Of a stretch of DNA of 27,189 nucleotides, positions 6,987 to 20,283 are shown one piece after another (positions within the stretch are counted from its first letter, which is position 1; every line of letters begins with the position of its first letter). The notes under the pieces were generated by a model. The model did not search any database. It was not told where the DNA came from and worked only from the letters and a program-made list of their open reading frames with translations. The stretch is from a virus. The stretch lies in the IMG/VR virus record IMGVR_UViG_3300032273_000073, positions 1 through 27,189 of that record, one strand, 5' to 3'. Made by a program: the position numbers and the translations under genes.

Positions 6987-8303
6987 TTACTCCTGGAAGT
7001 TTTCTTTAACTTCATCCCAAGAATACTCTTGACCATCTCTAATTAGTGTTATATCCTCTTTACCTATTGCATATCTCTTTACTTCTACATCTACATACTT
7101 TGGATCAAATTCCATTAGGTATGCTGTTCTATCTATCTGATCGCAACTCATAAGAGTACTTCCACTTCCTCCAAACCAATCTACAACTAGATCTCCTGGC
7201 TTAGTATTATTTAAAATTAATCTAGCTAATAGCTTAAGAGGTTTCATTGTAGGATGCACATCATTTCTTATTGGTTTATCCTCTCTAATAACTGTTGAGT
7301 GTTGCTCTAATAGCTTTGTCATTTCTACAATGTGTTCTCTTAGTTCTTTTTTACCCATGCTATTAAGAGTTCCAGGTAGTTCTAGTACTGTATCTTGTGT
7401 GTAATCTTTAATAAAATAATGTGCTGCTCCTTCTTTCCATCCATAGAGTATTGGCTCATGTCTCCAATTGTAATCTTGTCTTGATAGATTGAAACCATTC
7501 TTAACCCATATGAGACATTGAGATATCTTTAGGTTAGCTTCTTTTAATGCTCCTCTAAATGCTTCTGTCTCTATGTCAGCATGGAATATATAATATGCTC
7601 CTCCTGGTTCCAGGTACTTATGCATATTCTTATAAAATCCCAATAGGAAGCTATAGAAATCTGTTGAACTCATATTGTCATTGATTATCTTCTTTCCATC
7701 ATCTGATTCATAATTTATGTTATATGGGGGATCAGTTATACATAGCCTAGCTTTATGACCATCCATTAATCTCTTAGCATCTTCCTTTGATGTAGAATCT
7801 CCACAAAGAACTTTATGTCTTCCTAATAGCCATAGATCACCTTGCTTTGAAAAAGGTTCTTTCTGTTCTTCTACTTCTGGTGCATCTATCTCTTCTATGT
7901 TTTCACTACTTTCTAGTTCCTCTTCAATCAACTTTTGTACTTCTTCAGTATCAAATCCAGTTAAATATGATTTATGTCCTAACGACTCTAGTTCTTCATA
8001 TAGTTTTTCAAAATCCCATTCACCTAGTTCAGCTGCTCTAGATTCTCCTATTCTAATTACCTGTATATCTTCTTCAGATAAATTTTCTATCTGGTAACAT
8101 TTAACTTCTTGAATCCCTAATTCTTTTAGTGCTATATATCTAGCAGGCTCTCCTACAATGGTATTATTGATATCAATAACCAGTGGAATATACTGACTAT
8201 AGTTCTTGATGAGGTTCTTATATAGTTCTACCTGTGCATCTGTATATACTCTTGAGCTATTAGCTAGTTTTAATTCTGATATATTTATAATGATTTGGTT
8301 CAT
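6987..8303 (-). CDS. ParB-like domain fused to beta-class DNA methyltransferase
   Basis: From the ATG at 8303, preceded by GGAGGAGGG, the product is 438 residues; an upstream in-frame ATG at 8345 lacks such a site. Residues 1-115 form a ParB/Srx-like domain (VYTDAQVELYKNLI, IVGEPARYIALKELG at 51-63). A methyltransferase domain follows with catalytic DPPY at 191-194 and the AdoMet-binding WFGGSGSTL at about 376-384; the order IV-TRD-I defines the beta class, modifying N6-adenine or N4-cytosine. Such fusions are common in phages and thought to protect phage DNA from host restriction or mark it for packaging. No cognate endonuclease is adjacent. The RLE/R motif of true ParB CTPases is replaced (GEPARY), so the domain is probably not a partition protein. 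Confidence 0.9.
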   Translation of the reverse strand: MNQIIINISELKLANSSRVYTDAQVELYKNLIKNYSQYIPLVIDINNTIVGEPARYIALKELGIQEVKCYQIENLSEEDIQVIRIGESRAAELGEWDFEKLYEELESLGHKSYLTGFDTEEVQKLIEEELESSENIEEIDAPEVEEQKEPFSKQGDLWLLGRHKVLCGDSTSKEDAKRLMDGHKARLCITDPPYNINYESDDGKKIINDNMSSTDFYSFLLGFYKNMHKYLEPGGAYYIFHADIETEAFRGALKEANLKISQCLIWVKNGFNLSRQDYNWRHEPILYGWKEGAAHYFIKDYTQDTVLELPGTLNSMGKKELREHIVEMTKLLEQHSTVIREDKPIRNDVHPTMKPLKLLARLILNNTKPGDLVVDWFGGSGSTLMSCDQIDRTAYLMEFDPKYVDVEVKRYAIGKEDITLIRDGQEYSWDEVKENFQE

Positions 8304-8433
8304 ATTCCCTCCTCCATTTTCGTAAAATGTCGTTACTGATCTCATCTAAATCTTTTGAATATTAAATCCTCTTTAAGGACTTAGATACTTTCTACTTATT
8401 ACTACGCGAGGCAAACGTCTGTAGATACTATTT

Positions 8434-10495: not shown

Positions 10496-10521
10496 TAATT
10501 AATTTTAAATTATTTTAAAAT

Positions 10522-10555
10522 AAAAAAAACTTGGATATCTCACCAAGTTTTTTTT
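10522..10555. terminator. Strong bidirectional terminator ending the lysogenic/defence operon
   Basis: AAAAAAAACTTGG and CCAAGTTTTTTTT form a 13-base-pair stem with an 8-base loop, 12 bases after the stop at 10567. The symmetrical A and T runs let it work in both directions, insulating the defence operon from the promoter at 10495. Confidence 0.9.
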
Positions 10556-10566
10556 AATTACTTTTA

Positions 10567-10860: not shown

Positions 10861-11766
10861 TTATCCTCCTACATTTTCAAAAGAAATTTTGATTAATTCC
10901 TTTGCTATCTCTAAATCTTTTTCTTTGGTTATATAAAATTGAAAATTTCCAGTCCCAAAATGACCTATATTTGTTACATCTCTTCCAACATCTTTCCATT
11001 TTTTTAACTCACTAGAAGTTAATTTTAAATTTATTATTATTCTTTCTTTTTGACATTCTAGACTTGTAAAATTTTTAGCTATTTTATATGCAACATAACG
11101 CTTCCTTGGAACTTCTTCCACTTCATCACTTAGATTAATAGTATAGTCCCTAATATCATAAAAAGCTTCTTTTAAACTATCACTTTTTAATATATTAGCG
11201 ATTCTTTCATATGTTCTAACAGGAGCTTCATTTTCTTTTTCATCTACATGAATTGTCTTATCTTTACATTTATTATTTTCTTTATTAATAAATATCTCCT
11301 CAAGATTAAACATTCCGTTTTCAAAGTTTTTATATTTCCAGAGTTCTATTGATTTATTCATAACTTTTACAGCATGAAGATCATATTTTTTATATCCTGG
11401 GGCAATACAAATAACTCTTATATTACTCCAATCAATATCAATGTATCCAAGCTGTTTGTTAACAGCCATTTGAAAATCTCCTTTATGGTCTTCTAACCAA
11501 GAAAGATAATATAGTGATTGATTAAGAAGGCTTGAAGATTCTTCTTTTTTATACTCAATTATCACAGGATTATTATCTTCAGATATAGCTATAGTATCTA
11601 TCCTTCCAGAATGAATGCTACCAGTATAAAACTCTGAAGCTACAAATTTACAATTAAATATTTCTTCTAAATTATTTTCAACTAATTGTTGAAGTTCTCT
11701 TTCTAGTGGAAAATTCTTTTGTTTTACTACATTAAGAACTCCATTTTCTTTATTGAATAATGGCAT
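10861..11766 (-). CDS. PD-(D/E)XK nuclease-like protein with C-terminal DUF5655 domain
   Basis: A 301-residue protein. The N-terminal half has a restriction-endonuclease-like core: GRIDTIAI (Asp57) followed by VIIEYK (Glu71, Lys73), after a helix with ERELQQLVENNLEEIF. The C-terminal ~100 residues (RKRYVAYKIAKNFTSLE, RDVTNIGHFGTGNFQFYI) match DUF5655. Such proteins are found across bacteria and usually lie near mobile or defence genes; DNA cleavage is inferred from the motif. AAAGGAGG precedes the ATG. The gene follows dinD by 26 bases and precedes the small helical gene, in the same run as the type III restriction genes. Whether it acts on phage DNA or in repair is unknown. Confidence 0.8.
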   Translation of the reverse strand: MPLFNKENGVLNVVKQKNFPLERELQQLVENNLEEIFNCKFVASEFYTGSIHSGRIDTIAISEDNNPVIIEYKKEESSSLLNQSLYYLSWLEDHKGDFQMAVNKQLGYIDIDWSNIRVICIAPGYKKYDLHAVKVMNKSIELWKYKNFENGMFNLEEIFINKENNKCKDKTIHVDEKENEAPVRTYERIANILKSDSLKEAFYDIRDYTINLSDEVEEVPRKRYVAYKIAKNFTSLECQKERIIINLKLTSSELKKWKDVGRDVTNIGHFGTGNFQFYITKEKDLEIAKELIKISFENVGG

Positions 11767-11792: not shown

Positions 11793-12614
11793 TTAATTAA
11801 TTTTTTCTTCTTTTTCTAGTTTTTTTATACTCTTTTCTGGTGTTTCTAGTTCTTCTGGCATTGTTCCACCTAATTCTTCTATTGTCTCCCTCACTTTTTT
11901 ACCGACTTCAAAGTGAGCGTTATTTGCATTTTTTTTACCTTTGATTTCATCCCTTTTTAATTTTTCTTCTGTCTGTGTTGCTCTAAATAGATTAGCGGCT
12001 AATTCAGTACTTCCCATATGGTCTAATATTTGTTCACTTTTTTTTAAATTCTTTTTTTCTTTTATATCTTTTGCAGTTAATCCACCATATAGACCTCTAT
12101 ATCCGTGATTTTGAAAAATTGCATATTCTTTTGATGTTTCAACACCTGCATTTTTAGCTGCTTCTACCAAGGTTTTATTATGTTCTTTAAGCTCTGTTCT
12201 TATCCCTAGTCTTTTTTTATCTTCATCTAATTGCTCAAATTGTTCTGTTAATTCTTGTTTTCTAGTTTGAGTAGCAAAATATGTTTGACCTAATGCAATA
12301 ACTTCTTTTTTAGGATTTCCATTTTGTACAATTAAATAGCAAGCGTACCTAGATAGGACATAATCTTTAACTTCTCGTCTAGACACCCCAGTTTCTACTA
12401 TTTTGTTGACTTCAACAAAATGGTCTAAAATAGGATTCCCACTATTTATACATGCCTCTTTTGCTTTTTCTATAATTTTTGTAAAATTTCTCCATTCTGA
12501 ATATTCCAAAAGTGTTTGTAACTCTCTAGCATTCCAAAATTCTTCTTCATACTCATTTATACGTTTTATTTCCTCGAAAATATTCGATCTATATCTTTGA
12601 ATGTCATTCATCAT
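11793..12614 (-). CDS. dinD: DNA-damage-inducible protein D (DinD)
   Basis: A 273-residue protein matching DinD from end to end: an N-terminal Bro-N-like segment (FWNARELQTLLEYSEWRNFTKIIEKA), YVLSRYACYLIVQNGNPKK, then the helical LGQTYFATQTRKQELTEQ, EYAIFQNHGYRGLYGG and a C-terminal region ending in THMGST-like and HFEVGKKVRETIEELGG segments. In Escherichia coli DinD is an SOS gene product that disassembles RecA filaments. Its presence beside restriction and nuclease genes suggests protection from, or response to, DNA breakage caused by defence. A second ATG one codon later is equally possible. It lies 113 bases after the TIR gene. Confidence 0.88.
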   Translation of the reverse strand: MMNDIQRYRSNIFEEIKRINEYEEEFWNARELQTLLEYSEWRNFTKIIEKAKEACINSGNPILDHFVEVNKIVETGVSRREVKDYVLSRYACYLIVQNGNPKKEVIALGQTYFATQTRKQELTEQFEQLDEDKKRLGIRTELKEHNKTLVEAAKNAGVETSKEYAIFQNHGYRGLYGGLTAKDIKEKKNLKKSEQILDHMGSTELAANLFRATQTEEKLKRDEIKGKKNANNAHFEVGKKVRETIEELGGTMPEELETPEKSIKKLEKEEKIN

Positions 12615-12727: not shown

Positions 12728-13528
12728 TTAAAGGTTATTCATCTCTATCTCATATCCACAAGCTTTTAGTTCTTTACAAACTGCTTGTTGCCAATATCCA
12801 TTATTTAACGATGAATAGACCAATCCACTTATATCATTTGGTGTTTCAATCTCTCCTTTTACTAAGGCATGGACATTTTCACGTCCTAACTTTGCCATTA
12901 AATATCCATGTTCAAAAACAACGTTTTGACGTGCTCTATCTTTAGCTCTTGTGCTGTTCTTTTCATGATGCCCTCTTCCTTGATCACATGGAGTATATAA
13001 AACTATGCCATAATGGGCTTCTTTAGCATAATGTTCAATTTTTTCTATAATTGTCATCCCGGCACTAGCCTGCTCATGCAATATAATAGCCTCTAATCCA
13101 ATTTTTTCTAAAAATCTTGCTACTTCTAATTTAGTTTCATTATCTCTACCGTGGACAATAAAAACTTTAGTTTTCATCTCTTTATTTGAAGTGATTTTCT
13201 CCTTTTGTTTTTCAATTTTTTTTATAGGTATACTTTCTCCAAATTCAAGTAAATCTTGTATTTCAGTAAACTCATTTCTTAAAAATGTTCTTCTTTCAGC
13301 ATAAGTTGAAAACTCATTTTTAATAAAATCCCAAAATGTTTCTAAATTCCTATTTACTCTTACCCAACTTGGAATACTTTCTTTAAGATTTGAACTTCTC
13401 AAAAAATAATTTCTTAAATCCATGTATTCATCATTTGAAGCGGTTCCTCCTGTTGAAAAAGAAATTAATAATTTTATAAAATATTCAATTTTTTCATAAT
13501 CATTTTTTAAGTAATTTATAGTTTTCAC
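12728..13528 (-). CDS. TIR-like nucleotide-binding protein (CAP12/PycTIR-like domain)
   Basis: A 266-residue protein with an N-terminal ~110-residue helical region of unknown type and a C-terminal TIR-like domain (120-255): KVFIVHGRDNETKLEVARFLEKIGLEAIILHE, ASAGMTIIEKIE (Glu162 in the catalytic position), YGIVLYTPCDQG, RARQNVVFEHGYLMAKLGR and NDISGLVY. Domains of this type hydrolyse NAD+ or bind nucleotides in bacterial defence. It begins with GTG, overlapping the Res stop as TAGTG, with AGGAGGAG upstream, so it is translationally coupled to the restriction subunit. No cyclase or other second-messenger enzyme is in the window, so a sensing role through the N-terminal region is inferred. Confidence 0.85.
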   Translation of the reverse strand: MKTINYLKNDYEKIEYFIKLLISFSTGGTASNDEYMDLRNYFLRSSNLKESIPSWVRVNRNLETFWDFIKNEFSTYAERRTFLRNEFTEIQDLLEFGESIPIKKIEKQKEKITSNKEMKTKVFIVHGRDNETKLEVARFLEKIGLEAIILHEQASAGMTIIEKIEHYAKEAHYGIVLYTPCDQGRGHHEKNSTRAKDRARQNVVFEHGYLMAKLGRENVHALVKGEIETPNDISGLVYSSLNNGYWQQAVCKELKACGYEIEMNNL

Positions 13529-16464
13529 TACTTCACTCCTCCTACTATTCTACTTATCTCTTCATTTTTAAATTGTGCCTTAAATCTAATATTTAAATGT
13601 CCTTCAAAAAGTTTTTCTACACATTTTATTTTCATTTTTTCTTCCGAAGATAGGCCGATTTTTTCTTTCCCCTTTGATTCTATTACAAGATTAAGAGCTT
13701 CTTTTCCATCTTTATATTTAACTACATAGGCAAAGTCTGGAGAATAACTTCCTCCACCAATAACAGGTATTTTTATACTATTTTTAGGTATTTTAGAGAA
13801 TACTACTATTTCATTTATATGTTCTATAATATTTCCTCTTTCTATTTCGGAATCATAATACAACTCATTAAAAAGATAACTGCTATCTACTTGAACTGCT
13901 TTATCAAATAATACTCCTACTTCTGAGGTTCCTATATCTTTCAAAGGATTCCCTTTAGGATCTGTAAGTGCTGTAGGATGGATAGTAGTATTGACACTAT
14001 CATAAGATATAAACATATTATGTAATGATTTCTCTATTAGATAATCTCTATAATACTTTTGGATCTCTCTAATAGTTTTTCTACTCAAATAATTATTTAA
14101 ATCAAAATCATTTTTGAATACTCCTGGTTTAACTTCCACTTTACTATTATTTTTTAAATCAATAAACATACTGTGTAGCATATTAAATGGAACTTTCATT
14201 AGTTTTTCTAACTCCAAAAGAAATTCTTGATAAGTTAAATTAGAAATACTTACTGCATTATATACACTTTCTGTACTTTTTATTTCTTGAAAATCAATGT
14301 TATCTTCATCCTTTTTCATTTTAAATGATTTTAGTTCAAAACCACTTTTTTCAAAGTGTCCCTCTTCCCAAAATTTAATAATCATTTGATTTAATAATTC
14401 TTGCTGAACTTCATTATTTTTAAAGTCATAAGTAATCAAGACTTTCTTGTTTAATTCTTCCCATAACCTTTTAAATTCTTGATATTTTTCTTGCCTTAAA
14501 GTAACCTTGCCTTTTTTATCCTTGCTATTCATTACTTTCCCAGCTTTTAATTTACCGTCAAAAACTAATGGATATAGGTTTTGAATTTTTTCAAATCCAT
14601 TTTCCATAAATTTTTGCTTTCTATCTATAATTTCTAGTTTTCTTAATTCGTCAAAAAGATCATCTTTGTTTTTATTATAAGTTTTTGCTATCTCTTCTAA
14701 TAGCTCTTCATTTAATTCTTTTAATGCCTCTCCTAGAATAGATCCACTATTAATATCGTTTTGTAATTTACTCACAAAATCTTTTTCCTCAAAATCTACA
14801 AAATAATGTAAAAAATGTTCCCTATCTGTTACTCTGTTCATAAATTCATTTACAGGTATTCTTAGTCCTCTTCCGACTTCTTGTAATTTATTGGTCTCAC
14901 TACCACTACCTCTTAACTTACAAATAACAAAGACATTGGGATTATCCCACCCTTCTCTTAGTGTCCATTTAGAGAAAATAAATCTTCTAGGGTTATCAAG
15001 GTCTAATAATTTTTCTTTATCATGTAGTATCTCATTAACTTCTTTTTCTATTTTGTCGTCTTTCCCAGTATTATCTTTTGAAAAATAACCACCATGACAC
15101 TTTTTAATATCTTTTAAACTATTTTCTAAATAATTTTTATATTCTTGATTTTGAGTACTTTTAACACGTCTTTCCATAGCATTTTTTAATTCTTTTTCAA
15201 AATATATTCTTATGTGTTCTTGAGTTTTATCGTCATTTCTATATGATTCGATGGAATCTATAAAGAATAATGACATAGTTTTTATTCTTGGATAAGTCGT
15301 CATGTTTTTTTCTTCTATCTCAAAATGTTTTTCTATCGATTCTTTTATCATCTTTTCTTGTAAAATTTCACTATACGAATATGGATTTATCTTGTCTTTT
15401 TTCTTTAACTCCATTCCATTTGAAAGTAATACTCTAGTTTTATTCATTTCCGCTATTTTAAGCCCAGCCATTTCAGGATGGATTAATGAGAAATCATCCT
15501 TTTTATTTAATACGTGAGGTGTTGACTTCCCTACTTCATTTTTATAGCTGAATGTTGCTTCTTTTGTATCGGATTCTTTCAACATTATTATTTCATTTTT
15601 TCCATCTTTATTCTCTTCTATACTAACTTCAATACCCTTTACAAGATCATTGTTAAAAGCTTTTACGGCATTTAATGAATACATTAGATCATAATATTTT
15701 TTATCGAATGTAGCACCATATCTAACCATAAATTGAGGATTAAACTTCATCATATTTTTCCAAGTTTTATTATCACTTTTAAATTTATGAGGCTCATCTA
15801 TTATAATTACTGGCTTAGTTGCTGATATTCCATCTGTACAATTTGTAAATCTATCAAGCAATGTTCTATCATATTGTTCTTCTTGTATAGTTGGACTATT
15901 TATCATACCTTGGTTAATTACCAGCGCATAGATTGTATTTTTATCCATCTTAGAGCCTTCAATAAACTCTCTTACCTTTGATGGGAATGGTCTTTTCCCT
16001 GTAGGTTTTGCCATACTTTCTACAACTAAACAATTAATTTGCTTTTTATAAATATTTTTAAAATGAAGTCTAGATGACTCTCCTTTTAAGAAATTAACTG
16101 TTCCAGCTTTAATTGAAAGAGTAGGAACTACAATTATAAATTTATTTAGCCCATATTCTCTATTTAATTCAAACATAGTTTTTGTATAAGTATATGTTTT
16201 ACCTGTTCCTGTTTCCATATGGATATCTAAAATTAAAGGATCCTTCTCTTTATAATCTTTTTTTAGTGAATTTAAATCATGATCTTTTCTGATTGTATTT
16301 ATATTATCATCTATAATTTTTCTATTTTCTAAGTCTTCTGCAAGATTATAATTACTGTGATAATTTACTTCAGACCTTCCTGTTCCTCTAAAGACTTCTA
16401 CAATACTCTGTATGGCTTCGTTTTGATGTTCTAAATTGCCTTCAAAATTAAGATGTTTTCCCAT
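13528..16464 (-). CDS. Type III restriction enzyme, Res subunit
   Basis: A 978-residue ATP-dependent translocase and nuclease. Walker A METGTGKT at 83-90, the DEAD-box variant IIIDEPHK at 221-227, later SF2 motifs (FIFSKWTLREGWDNPNVFVIC, KLQEVGRGLRIPVN), and a C-terminal PD-(D/E)XK nuclease (PDF at 909-911, VIESKGK with Glu929 and Lys931). Full-length for the family. With Mod it forms a complex that cuts DNA bearing two oppositely oriented unmodified sites. The ATG overlaps the mod stop (TAATG). No frameshift or missing catalytic motif is visible, so the enzyme should be active. It is followed directly by the TIR-like gene. Confidence 0.93.
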   Translation of the reverse strand: MGKHLNFEGNLEHQNEAIQSIVEVFRGTGRSEVNYHSNYNLAEDLENRKIIDDNINTIRKDHDLNSLKKDYKEKDPLILDIHMETGTGKTYTYTKTMFELNREYGLNKFIIVVPTLSIKAGTVNFLKGESSRLHFKNIYKKQINCLVVESMAKPTGKRPFPSKVREFIEGSKMDKNTIYALVINQGMINSPTIQEEQYDRTLLDRFTNCTDGISATKPVIIIDEPHKFKSDNKTWKNMMKFNPQFMVRYGATFDKKYYDLMYSLNAVKAFNNDLVKGIEVSIEENKDGKNEIIMLKESDTKEATFSYKNEVGKSTPHVLNKKDDFSLIHPEMAGLKIAEMNKTRVLLSNGMELKKKDKINPYSYSEILQEKMIKESIEKHFEIEEKNMTTYPRIKTMSLFFIDSIESYRNDDKTQEHIRIYFEKELKNAMERRVKSTQNQEYKNYLENSLKDIKKCHGGYFSKDNTGKDDKIEKEVNEILHDKEKLLDLDNPRRFIFSKWTLREGWDNPNVFVICKLRGSGSETNKLQEVGRGLRIPVNEFMNRVTDREHFLHYFVDFEEKDFVSKLQNDINSGSILGEALKELNEELLEEIAKTYNKNKDDLFDELRKLEIIDRKQKFMENGFEKIQNLYPLVFDGKLKAGKVMNSKDKKGKVTLRQEKYQEFKRLWEELNKKVLITYDFKNNEVQQELLNQMIIKFWEEGHFEKSGFELKSFKMKKDEDNIDFQEIKSTESVYNAVSISNLTYQEFLLELEKLMKVPFNMLHSMFIDLKNNSKVEVKPGVFKNDFDLNNYLSRKTIREIQKYYRDYLIEKSLHNMFISYDSVNTTIHPTALTDPKGNPLKDIGTSEVGVLFDKAVQVDSSYLFNELYYDSEIERGNIIEHINEIVVFSKIPKNSIKIPVIGGGSYSPDFAYVVKYKDGKEALNLVIESKGKEKIGLSSEEKMKIKCVEKLFEGHLNIRFKAQFKNEEISRIVGGVK

Positions 16465-18467
16465 TAGTATCTCACCTCAACTTCTATATCTGCTCCCTTT
16501 TTATTATTGTAATTCTGAATGTTTTCTAGTAAATCAGCACGATACTTACCGTTGGTATTAGTAAATCCATAAACAACTAATTTATTAATTTTAAATTCAG
16601 GATCATTATCTATTTTTTCTATAATTCCTTTCAATATTTCATTTGAATTAATAGAATCTATGAGGTATAAAATTTCTCCAACTTTATAAGCAACATAGAT
16701 ATATGATCCAGTTCCATCTCCACCAACTACTTTTTTCTCCCATGAAAATTTGATCTTTTCTATTTTTGTATTTAAGAAATTTCCATCTTGTAATTTATAT
16801 GTATGGACTAGGTCTAGTTTATCATTATGAATAAATGAGATAGGTTCATGCAGTTTTATCTCTCTTGTAAACTCTTTCATTTCTTCTAGCTCTTTGATTT
16901 TATTATCTATTTTAAATATTTTAAACCCTAATTTATTCTCTAATTCTTTTCTATTAAATCCTTCCTCTTTTTTGTTTTCTAATTTATTTAACATATAAGT
17001 ATTAGCTCTTTTAACTCTTTCTATTCCAATAGAAGTAATGTTAGTAGGCAGATCGTTGTCAATACAAAAATTATAGGCTTCTTTGGAATTTTTAGGATTT
17101 ACTTCTTCTTCTAATTGAATCATTATCCATTTCCTATGCCCTCCATCTTCAGTGTTTAATCTATTAACAGCATGAGCTGTAGTTGCTGACCCTGAGAAAA
17201 AATCTAAAACAATACCATCTTTGTCTCCTCCAACCTTTGTTAATTTTTCTATTAAATATGGAGATTTTGGAAATGACATCACATTTTTTTCAAATAAATT
17301 TTTTATTGATTTTTTACCATAATCATTATTTATTTCTTTATCAATCCAAACAGATTTTATTAGAGTTGTCGCTATCTCTCCATTTTCTCCACAGAGGTAG
17401 TCTTTCCGATAGATTCTCCATTCTTCACCTAGTTTTTCTGCTACCAATAAATCAGATTCTTTAGTCACTTTATCTTTTCCCCAAGTCCAACAAGTTTTAA
17501 CATCTTCGCTTGTTATAGGATAAGTTATTTCTGTAAATTCTTCATTATTTTCACTTGATACAGTATAATTTTTTGGATTTATATATAAAGGATAATACAA
17601 ATTAGGACGAGTTTGTGGATTAAAAGCTTGGTTTCTATTTCTAAGCCCCGTTAAACGGTATTTTCCATATTGATCTTTTTTATTATATTCTTTTATCATA
17701 TCACCAGATTTCTCAATTCCAGACATAGTTTTATTAGTACCTTCGTCTTTCGCATAAATTAGTATGTATTCATTGGTTTTAGCAACATATTTATCTAAAT
17801 TTCTTCCTCTAGGATTTAGCTGAACCGCTAATTTAGCTATAAAATTTTCTTCTCCAAAAATTTCATCACACATTAATTTTAATTGTGCGACTTCATTATC
17901 ATCTATTGAAATGAATATTACTCCATCTTCTGTTAATAACTTCCTAGCCAGATATAATCTTGGGAACATAAATGTTAACCACGCTGAATGAGAAGATGAA
18001 CTTCCCTCCCATTTTAAGATTCTTTCTTTTTCATCTTCCTCTATTACCTTTGCTTCTACTAGTTTTTCTAATTCTTTTTTACTAAAATCTCTATTGTCAT
18101 TGTATACAAACTCTCCACTTTTTGTGTTATATGGGGGATCTATATAGATCATCTTTATTTTTTCTCTATACCCATTGTTTAGATGCCTCAAGACCTCTAA
18201 ATTATCTCCTTTGATATATATATTTTCACTATCCTTATTTTTTTCTTTTTTATTATGTTCTACATCTTCTCTAATCATAGTTCTAGCGTCTACTTGAGCC
18301 AAAGCTCTAGCATATGATTTCCCAAGCCAATTTAAACCGTATGAATCCTTAAATAATTTTGCTTCTGGGCTAATTATTTCTTGAAACTTTTCTATATTAA
18401 AATTTCCATCTCTATCAAAGCATTCTGAAAATTCTCTTTTTATAATTTCTAATTTACCATTATCCAT
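16464..18467 (-). CDS. Type III DNA methyltransferase, Mod subunit
   Basis: 667 residues from the ATG at 18467, which has GGAGAAAATAAT upstream; a longer frame start at 18503 lacks a comparable site. Catalytic DPPY at 110-113 (IYIDPPYNTKSGEFVYND) and AdoMet-binding DFFSGSATT at about 422-430 give the beta-class order, with the target recognition region between them (about 200-400). It recognises a non-palindromic site and methylates N6-adenine on one strand. The central region is the part that sets specificity, and I cannot predict the site. The ATG of res overlaps its stop. It lies 16 bases after the AbiH-like gene. Confidence 0.93.
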   Translation of the reverse strand: MDNGKLEIIKREFSECFDRDGNFNIEKFQEIISPEAKLFKDSYGLNWLGKSYARALAQVDARTMIREDVEHNKKEKNKDSENIYIKGDNLEVLRHLNNGYREKIKMIYIDPPYNTKSGEFVYNDNRDFSKKELEKLVEAKVIEEDEKERILKWEGSSSSHSAWLTFMFPRLYLARKLLTEDGVIFISIDDNEVAQLKLMCDEIFGEENFIAKLAVQLNPRGRNLDKYVAKTNEYILIYAKDEGTNKTMSGIEKSGDMIKEYNKKDQYGKYRLTGLRNRNQAFNPQTRPNLYYPLYINPKNYTVSSENNEEFTEITYPITSEDVKTCWTWGKDKVTKESDLLVAEKLGEEWRIYRKDYLCGENGEIATTLIKSVWIDKEINNDYGKKSIKNLFEKNVMSFPKSPYLIEKLTKVGGDKDGIVLDFFSGSATTAHAVNRLNTEDGGHRKWIMIQLEEEVNPKNSKEAYNFCIDNDLPTNITSIGIERVKRANTYMLNKLENKKEEGFNRKELENKLGFKIFKIDNKIKELEEMKEFTREIKLHEPISFIHNDKLDLVHTYKLQDGNFLNTKIEKIKFSWEKKVVGGDGTGSYIYVAYKVGEILYLIDSINSNEILKGIIEKIDNDPEFKINKLVVYGFTNTNGKYRADLLENIQNYNNKKGADIEVEVRY

Positions 18468-18483: not shown

Positions 18484-19533
18484 CTATTTATATTGTTTTT
18501 CAATAAATTCTACATTAGGGATTTTTCTTCCACGAATACTGTCTCCATAAATAGTTACAGTCTTATATCGTTCTCCTAATAAACTTTTTATTTTTTGCTT
18601 TCCACTCTCAAAAGAATTAGTATAGTTATAAATTTTTACTTTTAAAACCTCTAATGGAATAGTTGTACCTATTGGAAGAAATCCATTTTCATCATGCATT
18701 TTACAATTATTTAGAATTAACTGATTTACAAAATCATCACTATTTCCTATTGAATAACCTATTATAACAATCTCTGATATTTTCTTTTCTAACGGTTTAA
18801 AAAAATCTTGAACTATAGGAACTAATTCTTTATTGTGCATTCTCTCAAAAATAGTATCTTTTGAAAACACTTTATCTTCATATTTTACATGAACATCTGA
18901 TGAATCTATATGAATTGGATATTTCACGTCATGATAATAACCAATAACAGGAAAAAGACCGTCTTTTATATTTCCGTGTATACATAAAGTGTTTAATTTA
19001 TCACTATAAAATTTATGAGTGTTTGTATAATTAAAGTTAAGAATATGCGCACCATCATTAAATTCTTTTTTTAATTCATAATTGGTAGAGGTTACCTCAT
19101 GAATTATCTTAGTTTTTAAATATTTATTAAAATAATCTGTAAAATCTAAAGATAAACTAAAAAAAGTATCTAGTGTATATTTAGTTTGTATTTCCTCTAT
19201 TTTTATTTTTAGATTTTCTCTTACATAATCTCGCTCTTTTTTAGCAGAAATGATTTCCGCCGCACTCTTAATTCTTTTAACATTGTCATAGGTATCTAAT
19301 TCTTTTTTTAGATTATTTTTTTCTTCAATTTCCAAATATTCTTCATGGAATATTTCTTCAATATTAGCCCAACTTAAATAAGCAGTTTTATCCGAGTCAT
19401 TCATATGCTTTTTTATAATTTTATCTACCTTTGTCACAAATTCTTTATCTTGACAATAATTTTTAAAATTATCGAAAGATGTCTTTAGTCCATGATGTAA
19501 ATCAAAACCATTCCCTAGTACTATTAATTTCAT
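18484..19533 (-). CDS. AbiH-like abortive infection protein
   Basis: A 349-residue protein that opens MKLIVLGNGFDLHHGLKTSF, the classical AbiH family N-terminus, and carries HILNFNYTNTHKFY, LCIHGNIKDG and IVIIGYSIGNSDDFV in order. AbiH proteins block phage growth after infection by an unknown mechanism. GGGAGAG precedes the ATG. It starts 39 bases after the CI repressor stop and is followed by the mod gene at 16 bases, so it is the first defence gene of the run. There is no signal peptide or membrane segment; cytoplasmic action is expected. Confidence 0.87.
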   Translation of the reverse strand: MKLIVLGNGFDLHHGLKTSFDNFKNYCQDKEFVTKVDKIIKKHMNDSDKTAYLSWANIEEIFHEEYLEIEEKNNLKKELDTYDNVKRIKSAAEIISAKKERDYVRENLKIKIEEIQTKYTLDTFFSLSLDFTDYFNKYLKTKIIHEVTSTNYELKKEFNDGAHILNFNYTNTHKFYSDKLNTLCIHGNIKDGLFPVIGYYHDVKYPIHIDSSDVHVKYEDKVFSKDTIFERMHNKELVPIVQDFFKPLEKKISEIVIIGYSIGNSDDFVNQLILNNCKMHDENGFLPIGTTIPLEVLKVKIYNYTNSFESGKQKIKSLLGERYKTVTIYGDSIRGRKIPNVEFIEKQYK

Positions 19534-19572: not shown

Positions 19573-20283
19573 CTACTTACACCATGTCTCTTCATGATAT
19601 GTTTTTATTACTCTTCCTTCACATGTCAGATTTTCACTCTGCAATATTATTATTGCTGGAACATCTGGATTAAAAGATATTAGTTGAATAATATTCTGAC
19701 TATCTATTAATAATTGTTTTATAAAGGTCTCCTCATTATATGTAAATACACAAACTTTTTTATTCAATTCTTTTGGATCCTCACATAAAGAAGGGTCTAC
19801 CAATGCAACTGAACCATCAAAGATAGATTTTCCTCCTATTCTAGTCATAGAGTCCCCTTCTACCTTTACCACAAATCTACCTTCTGCATAGTCTTCTAAA
19901 GGTATAACATATTCTTCATCAATCATATTTGATAAATTTATATATCCTGGACCAGCACTTGCAGACCCATACATCGGAACAGTAGCACTTTCAGTAGCTA
20001 CTTTAGAATTAATTCTTTTTACATTTGATGGAATACTTAAATATCCTATATCATTGAACATTTTAATTACATCAAGGTCATATATTTTACATAGACTTTT
20101 TAATAATATTGCATTTGGAACCTTTCTCTCTGCATTTTCTAATCTCTGAACATCACTTTTGCTAATCTTTAGATTTAAATAATCTAATTTTATTTTTACC
20201 TGCTCTAATGTTAAATTTTTATTTGAACGACCGCTTTTTAATAATTCTCCTAATTTAATCATTTGGTCATTATTTAATTTCAT
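19573..20283 (-). CDS. CI/LexA-like repressor with S24 autocleavage domain
   Basis: A 236-residue protein. An N-terminal XRE-type helix-turn-helix (about 8-75, TLEQVKIKLDYLNLKISKSDVQRLENAERKVP) binds operators. The C-terminal S24 peptidase domain has the Ala110-Gly111 cleavage pair in GSASAGPGYI, catalytic Ser145 in VEGDSMTRIG and Lys189 in TFIKQLL. Contact with activated RecA would trigger self-cleavage and prophage induction. AGAGGTGG precedes the ATG. It is transcribed leftwards into the AbiH gene with only 39 bases between, so downstream defence genes probably share its promoter. Confidence 0.9.
   Translation of the reverse strand: MKLNNDQMIKLGELLKSGRSNKNLTLEQVKIKLDYLNLKISKSDVQRLENAERKVPNAILLKSLCKIYDLDVIKMFNDIGYLSIPSNVKRINSKVATESATVPMYGSASAGPGYINLSNMIDEEYVIPLEDYAEGRFVVKVEGDSMTRIGGKSIFDGSVALVDPSLCEDPKELNKKVCVFTYNEETFIKQLLIDSQNIIQLISFNPDVPAIIILQSENLTCEGRVIKTYHEETWCK

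Follow-up and report, generated by a model that had tools for sequence, protein, structure and literature searches.

A viral DNA of 27,189 nucleotides (the window; IMG/VR record IMGVR_UViG_3300032273_000073) carries a gene for a TIR-like effector that starts within the stop codon of a type III restriction gene. Does this junction mark a two-tier unit in which failed restriction triggers NAD+ loss, as a sequence-only reading had proposed, or have the two genes become neighbours by cargo shuffling? We favour the following answer, with a probability of about two in three: the TIR gene, part of the cargo operon of a prophage, would encode a self-contained NADase for abortive infection that acts as a fall-back behind restriction, and Res would not be its sensor.

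The restriction genes, their overlaps and the operon

The features of the locus, numbered along the window, are the following.

10521..10556, strand not assigned: terminator-like stem flanked by T runs at either end, where the operon likely stops; listed on the plus strand, but palindromic and so terminator-like on the minus strand too
10861..11766, minus: PDC-S18 / DUF5655 protein, same operon
11793..12614, minus: DinD-like gene, PDC-S13, same operon, after a 113-nt gap following the TIR gene
12728..13528, minus: TIR-effector gene, GTG start, 266 aa (open reading frame; PF10137, E=3.4e-39; PADLOC PDC-S35, E=3.8e-77)
12761..13168, minus: TIR domain, aa 121-256 (profile match, structure model, fold match)
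12911..12913, minus: codon of predicted catalytic Glu206 in the NVVFE motif, equivalent to SfSTING E84 (alignment, conservation, model)
13241..13528, minus: five-helix domain at the N-terminus, aa 1-96, resembling AbiJ-NTD and probably acting as sensor or autoinhibitor (common to AbiJ/Abi_C proteins; helical model)
13526..13530, minus: TAGTG, Res stop overlapping the TIR start (sequence)
13538..13543, minus: AGGAGG, ribosome-binding site for the TIR gene, located within the final codons of res (sequence)
13528..16464, minus: res, type III restriction endonuclease, 978 aa (profile matches; 43% identity with EcoP1I Res, 72% with an Ilyobacter prophage Res)
16464..18467, minus: mod, type III methyltransferase, likely ATG start at 18467 (profile matches; TAATG overlap with res)
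18484..19533, minus: AbiH gene, 16 nt upstream of mod (PF14253, E=1e-23)
19573..20283, minus: CI/S24-type phage repressor, first gene of the putative operon

Res matched PRK15483 (975 bits) and REase_III (E=3e-291) over its full length, and Mod matched MTase_III (E=7e-153) and has an EcoP15I-type C-terminal domain. The domain content is that of a type III system of the EcoP1I/EcoP15I kind, with PF01555 and PF18273 in Mod and PF04851 and PF19778 in Res (helicase and endonuclease domains). The locus resembles EcoP1I Mod-Res of phage P1 in being a type III restriction-modification (R-M) system borne by a temperate phage, the two Res proteins being 43% identical over 100% of the length; P1, however, has no TIR gene after res. 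Mod is 66% identical overall to Mod of the Ilyobacter prophage, with strong divergence in a central stretch (about aa 210-415), which suggests that the target sequences of the two enzymes differ.

Both gene overlaps described from the sequence were observed. The mod-res overlap is TAATG, at 16466-16462, and the GTG of the TIR gene lies in the Res stop as TAGTG, at 13530-13526 on the minus strand, a single base being shared between stop and start. The AGGAGG motif is placed 9 nt 5' of this GTG, which is the correct start because TIR homologues begin at most 1 residue from it. The TAGTG overlap and the AGGAGG site together support the proposal that the TIR protein is produced with Res, in the form of co-translation. 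One-base gene overlaps are common in bacterial operons, and they were present at two of the seven operon junctions here; therefore, TAGTG alone indicates co-translation, not co-function.

The repressor, AbiH, mod, res, TIR, DinD and DUF5655-protein genes and an 88-aa gene form a unidirectional run with gaps of -1 to 113 nt, with a terminator-like stem at either end (20476-20455 and 10556-10521). The minus strand from 20283 to 10556 showed only a single weak stem, located in res, and no convincing terminator of this type within the run; a promoter scan gave 76 matches versus 75 expected. On one side the viral record contains portal, terminase and ClpP genes; the other side holds genes for ParA and a serine recombinase. 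As the record is that of a phage with portal, terminase and ClpP genes, the TIR locus is prophage cargo. GC content is 0.25-0.30 in the cargo genes versus 0.33-0.34 in the phage structural genes. The run repressor-AbiH-Mod-Res-TIR-DinD-nuclease is a lysogenic-conversion defence operon, presumably expressed with the repressor; a temperate phage here carries restriction together with, in the same co-translated operon, a suicide gene whose product probably destroys NAD+. The phage host is probably a member of the Fusobacteriota, as judged only from the Ilyobacter match and base composition. Elsewhere in the window (6987-8345), a single phage protein combines a ParB-like domain with a DNA methyltransferase.

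The TIR protein: active site and N-terminal domain

The assignment of the protein to the CAP12-type TIR effectors held. PF10137 (CAP12/Pycsar-type TIR) matched aa 121-242 of the 266-aa protein (E=3e-39, 134 bits, above the curated cut-off of 24.7 bits), and TIR-STING was the top fold match when the predicted structure was compared with a fold library (E=1.5e-7). Five PADLOC models of PDC-S35, a single-gene candidate family with a PF10137 TIR, matched the protein, the best (E=3.8e-77) covering aa 69-265. The protein shares domain, length and C-terminal TIR with PDC-S35 members, but these are usually standalone, whereas the window gene overlaps a type III res. TIR relatives are present in over a thousand plasmid records. 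A literature search found no paper on PDC-S35 or under the Pfam name of PF10137; the single paper retrieved on PF10137 and defence concerned eukaryotic TIRs. In two Pseudomonas loci (L052:8001 and L054:7998), a second PF10137 TIR match precedes the N-domain-TIR gene by about 0.5 kb, forming tandem TIR genes.

The published active-site residues of SfSTING are R78, N80, E84 and D110 (PMC9402430), and R200, N202, E206 and D232 of the window protein align to them; the numbering offset of 8 in the SfSTING PDB chain was read off the alignment and is consistent with all four residues. In TIR enzymes the catalytic glutamate sits in helix alphaC (PMC9402430). In the structure model, E206 occupies helix 201-214 (alphaC), and E162 occupies the preceding helix, 160-167 (alphaB); both glutamates are invariant in 38 sequences. 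The claim that a catalytic glutamate is retained therefore stood, with its E84 equivalent in E206, but the residue had been numbered Glu162, a candidate that was rejected on the SfSTING alignment and the helix position in the model. By alignment, E206 is the predicted catalytic residue, and by its fold and conserved pocket the protein is a putative NADase.

PF10137 includes the Cap12 and PycTIR effectors, and the window protein shares the TIR fold and the active-site residues with SfSTING/Cap12 of CBASS (7UN8). It could on that account be a cyclic-nucleotide-triggered CBASS or Pycsar effector served by a cyclase elsewhere in the host, but it has no STING domain, and it scored 29 bits with the Cap12 equivalog model, whose cut-off is 450. 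Among the ORFs scanned there was no partner of the cyclase, STING or SAVED type, in agreement with the earlier remark that a cyclase or STING-like sensor is absent here, and none lies beside the TIR gene. The N-domain folds differently, into five helices for which the PDB gave no match. The assignment to CBASS or Pycsar was rejected on the missing partner and on an N-domain unlike STING or SAVED, and we regard it as extremely improbable.

Some TIRs produce a signal rather than depleting NAD+ themselves, and the operon includes several defence genes of unknown action, so a Thoeris-like cyclic ADPR signal made for an operon effector (e.g. AbiH or DinD) was also considered. The PF10137 TIRs studied so far, however, deplete NAD+ (SfSTING, PMC9402430; TirC, PMC13142454), a ThsA-like partner was not found among the scanned ORFs and the family is standalone elsewhere; such signalling is very unlikely.

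The helical region of about 110 residues noted before the TIR appears in the model as a five-helix domain of about 100 aa (helices 10-25, 32-44, 54-58, 62-72 and 76-96), predicted with confidence (pLDDT about 92-98 across aa 11-90) and conserved throughout the TIR family. In the window protein this N-domain gave no Pfam match even at E=10, and neither the PDB nor a viral fold library gave a fold match. An N-domain profile, by contrast, retrieved two architectures, N-domain-TIR and N-domain with Abi_C/AbiJ HEPN. The Abi_C-bearing proteins were matched at E=1e-24 to 1e-39, three of them having been in the profile, and the N-domain-AbiJ protein of locus L183 matches PADLOC AbiJ. Five AbiJ N-terminal domains have been described, of which AbiJ-NTD2, 3 and 5 are also fused to TIR, and their proposed role is to recognise components of a virus or to hold the C-terminal toxin in check (Anantharaman et al., 2013; PMC3710099). 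On these profile matches, the N-domain of the TIR protein is of the AbiJ-NTD kind: it is common to proteins ending in AbiJ/Abi_C HEPN, although the window protein ends in a TIR instead. Its role is probably that of a sensor or autoinhibitor. The analysis singles out a conserved N-domain behind which TIR and AbiJ effectors interchange; should this domain prove to be the trigger, it gives a direct route to what standalone PF10137 TIR proteins sense.

Neighbours of res and of TIR genes in other genomes

The Res-TIR pair is not conserved. Homologues of the window Mod or Res were found in the flanks of none of 79 loci retrieved with the TIR protein, and TIR relatives that align in full length (aa 3-262, 50-60% identity) stand alone: the 120 genes next to them match 160 Pfam families, and no family is common to more than four. 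From the side of restriction, the closest Res relative (72%) is encoded by a prophage on an Ilyobacter polytropus megaplasmid, and TIR is absent from that phage record. There, PDC-M59A and a Doc-like PDC-M59B directly follow res (L082:17957-19406), so that the third slot holds another toxin-like pair. AbiH is missing at the corresponding place of this prophage. The Res relatives of P1 and of other plasmids and genomes are followed by unrelated genes, including OLD-like nucleases and ABC-3C parts.

Searches with a fused Res-TIR query gave the same result. No plasmid record had both parts and none reached 80% of the query. An adjacent Res-TIR pair was found in 0 of 1259 genomes (298 Campylobacterota, 274 gammaproteobacterial, 399 Bacillota and 288 Bacteroidota, the group names inferred from the centre genome), with 2-3 candidates scored per genome; the sample covers these four groups, and a conserved Mod-Res-TIR lineage local to the Fusobacteriota could fall outside it. 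A conserved Mod-Res-TIR triplet was rejected on these four lines (79 TIR loci, the closest Res, plasmids and 1259 genomes), and they leave unsupported the idea of a two-tier unit triggered by failed restriction.

Homology to the Ilyobacter Res stops in the final ~8 codons, where the TIR ribosome site sits, and such a break is the trace expected from an exchanged third-gene cassette. With the suicide gene alone in nearly all relatives, TIR and Res look like neighbours by cargo shuffling.

We propose the following sequence of events for the self-contained NADase gene. A lysogen would express the operon S24-AbiH-mod-res-TIR-DinD-nuclease together with the repressor, and EcoP1I-type restriction would be the first barrier to a superinfecting phage. 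A phage that escapes would meet the own trigger of the TIR protein, in which an AbiJ-NTD-like helical N-domain, the presumed sensor or autoinhibitor, is joined to a putative CAP12-type TIR NADase; as its trigger, the N-domain probably binds a protein or structure of the phage. The TIR domains would then oligomerise and NAD+ would be destroyed. TAGTG and the ribosome site would set co-translation with Res, which would not thereby become the sensor, and the third gene would be a cassette open to exchange at its junction with the Res stop. The close packing of immunity genes and suicide genes is a known arrangement (PMC3506569), of which the window locus is a tidy instance.

Restriction genes beside the same N-domain

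The absence of TIR beside Res in relatives, named beforehand as refuting the coupling, was found within the sample; it is softened by a Mod-Res-[N-domain + AbiJ HEPN] locus and by overlaps of TIR and type IIG genes. In a Bacillota genome (locus L181), a type III Mod-Res is followed, after 35 nt, by the window N-domain together with an AbiJ HEPN. In two further loci an N-domain-AbiJ gene overlaps hsdR of a type I locus (L183) or lies near an MmeI-type gene (L182). In Sulfurimonas (L062:855-5862 and L063:2543-5417), a type IIG R-M gene and a PF10137 TIR gene share 1 or 4 nt in an overlap, and the N-domain of these TIRs differs from that of the window TIR. These are few cases among 172 effector loci, duplicates counted, as detected with eight R-M reference proteins, and they fit defence-island enrichment as well as a real guard function.

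Such a guard would work as follows: the N-domain binds Mod-Res and the TIR is silent, until Res is disturbed by a phage anti-restriction protein or by restriction that has stalled, upon which the TIR is freed and NAD+ is destroyed. The TAGTG overlap and all of the loci above are points in its favour, as is the precedent of PrrC, held by EcoPrrI, with the hypothesis of immunity-suicide coupling (PMC3506569, PMC3710099). PrrC is a type I-linked anticodon nuclease, the linkage being conserved in diverse bacteria (PMC3506569). The window TIR resembles PrrC-EcoPrrI as a suicide enzyme encoded with a restriction system and forming a second defence line, but the PrrC linkage is to type I and conserved, whereas no conserved linkage of that kind to an R-M system was found for the TIR in TIR loci, plasmids, 1259 genomes or N-domain loci. 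The window is the only one of about 56 distinct N-domain-TIR loci that adjoins type III genes, the TIR relatives work, if at all, without Mod-Res and the closest Res has no such partner. We consider a guard on Res unlikely. The wider version, in which the N-domain would dock on restriction enzymes throughout the family (those of type III in the window and L181, of type I in L183), with interchangeable TIR NADase and AbiJ RNase killers fired when restriction is blocked, is quite unlikely. The perfect stop-start overlap and the L181 Mod-Res-[N-domain-AbiJ] locus nevertheless leave room for a link with restriction beside the preferred reading of a self-contained NADase gene.

Three minor observations concern these loci. 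The N-domain-AbiJ gene of L181 (L181:8659-9463) consists of two overlapping ORFs (170 and 105 aa), reflecting a frameshift or a possible programmed shift. In Sulfurimonas, the type IIG gene of L063 is in pieces, and the TIR gene of L062 is followed by an overlapping YhcG nuclease gene.
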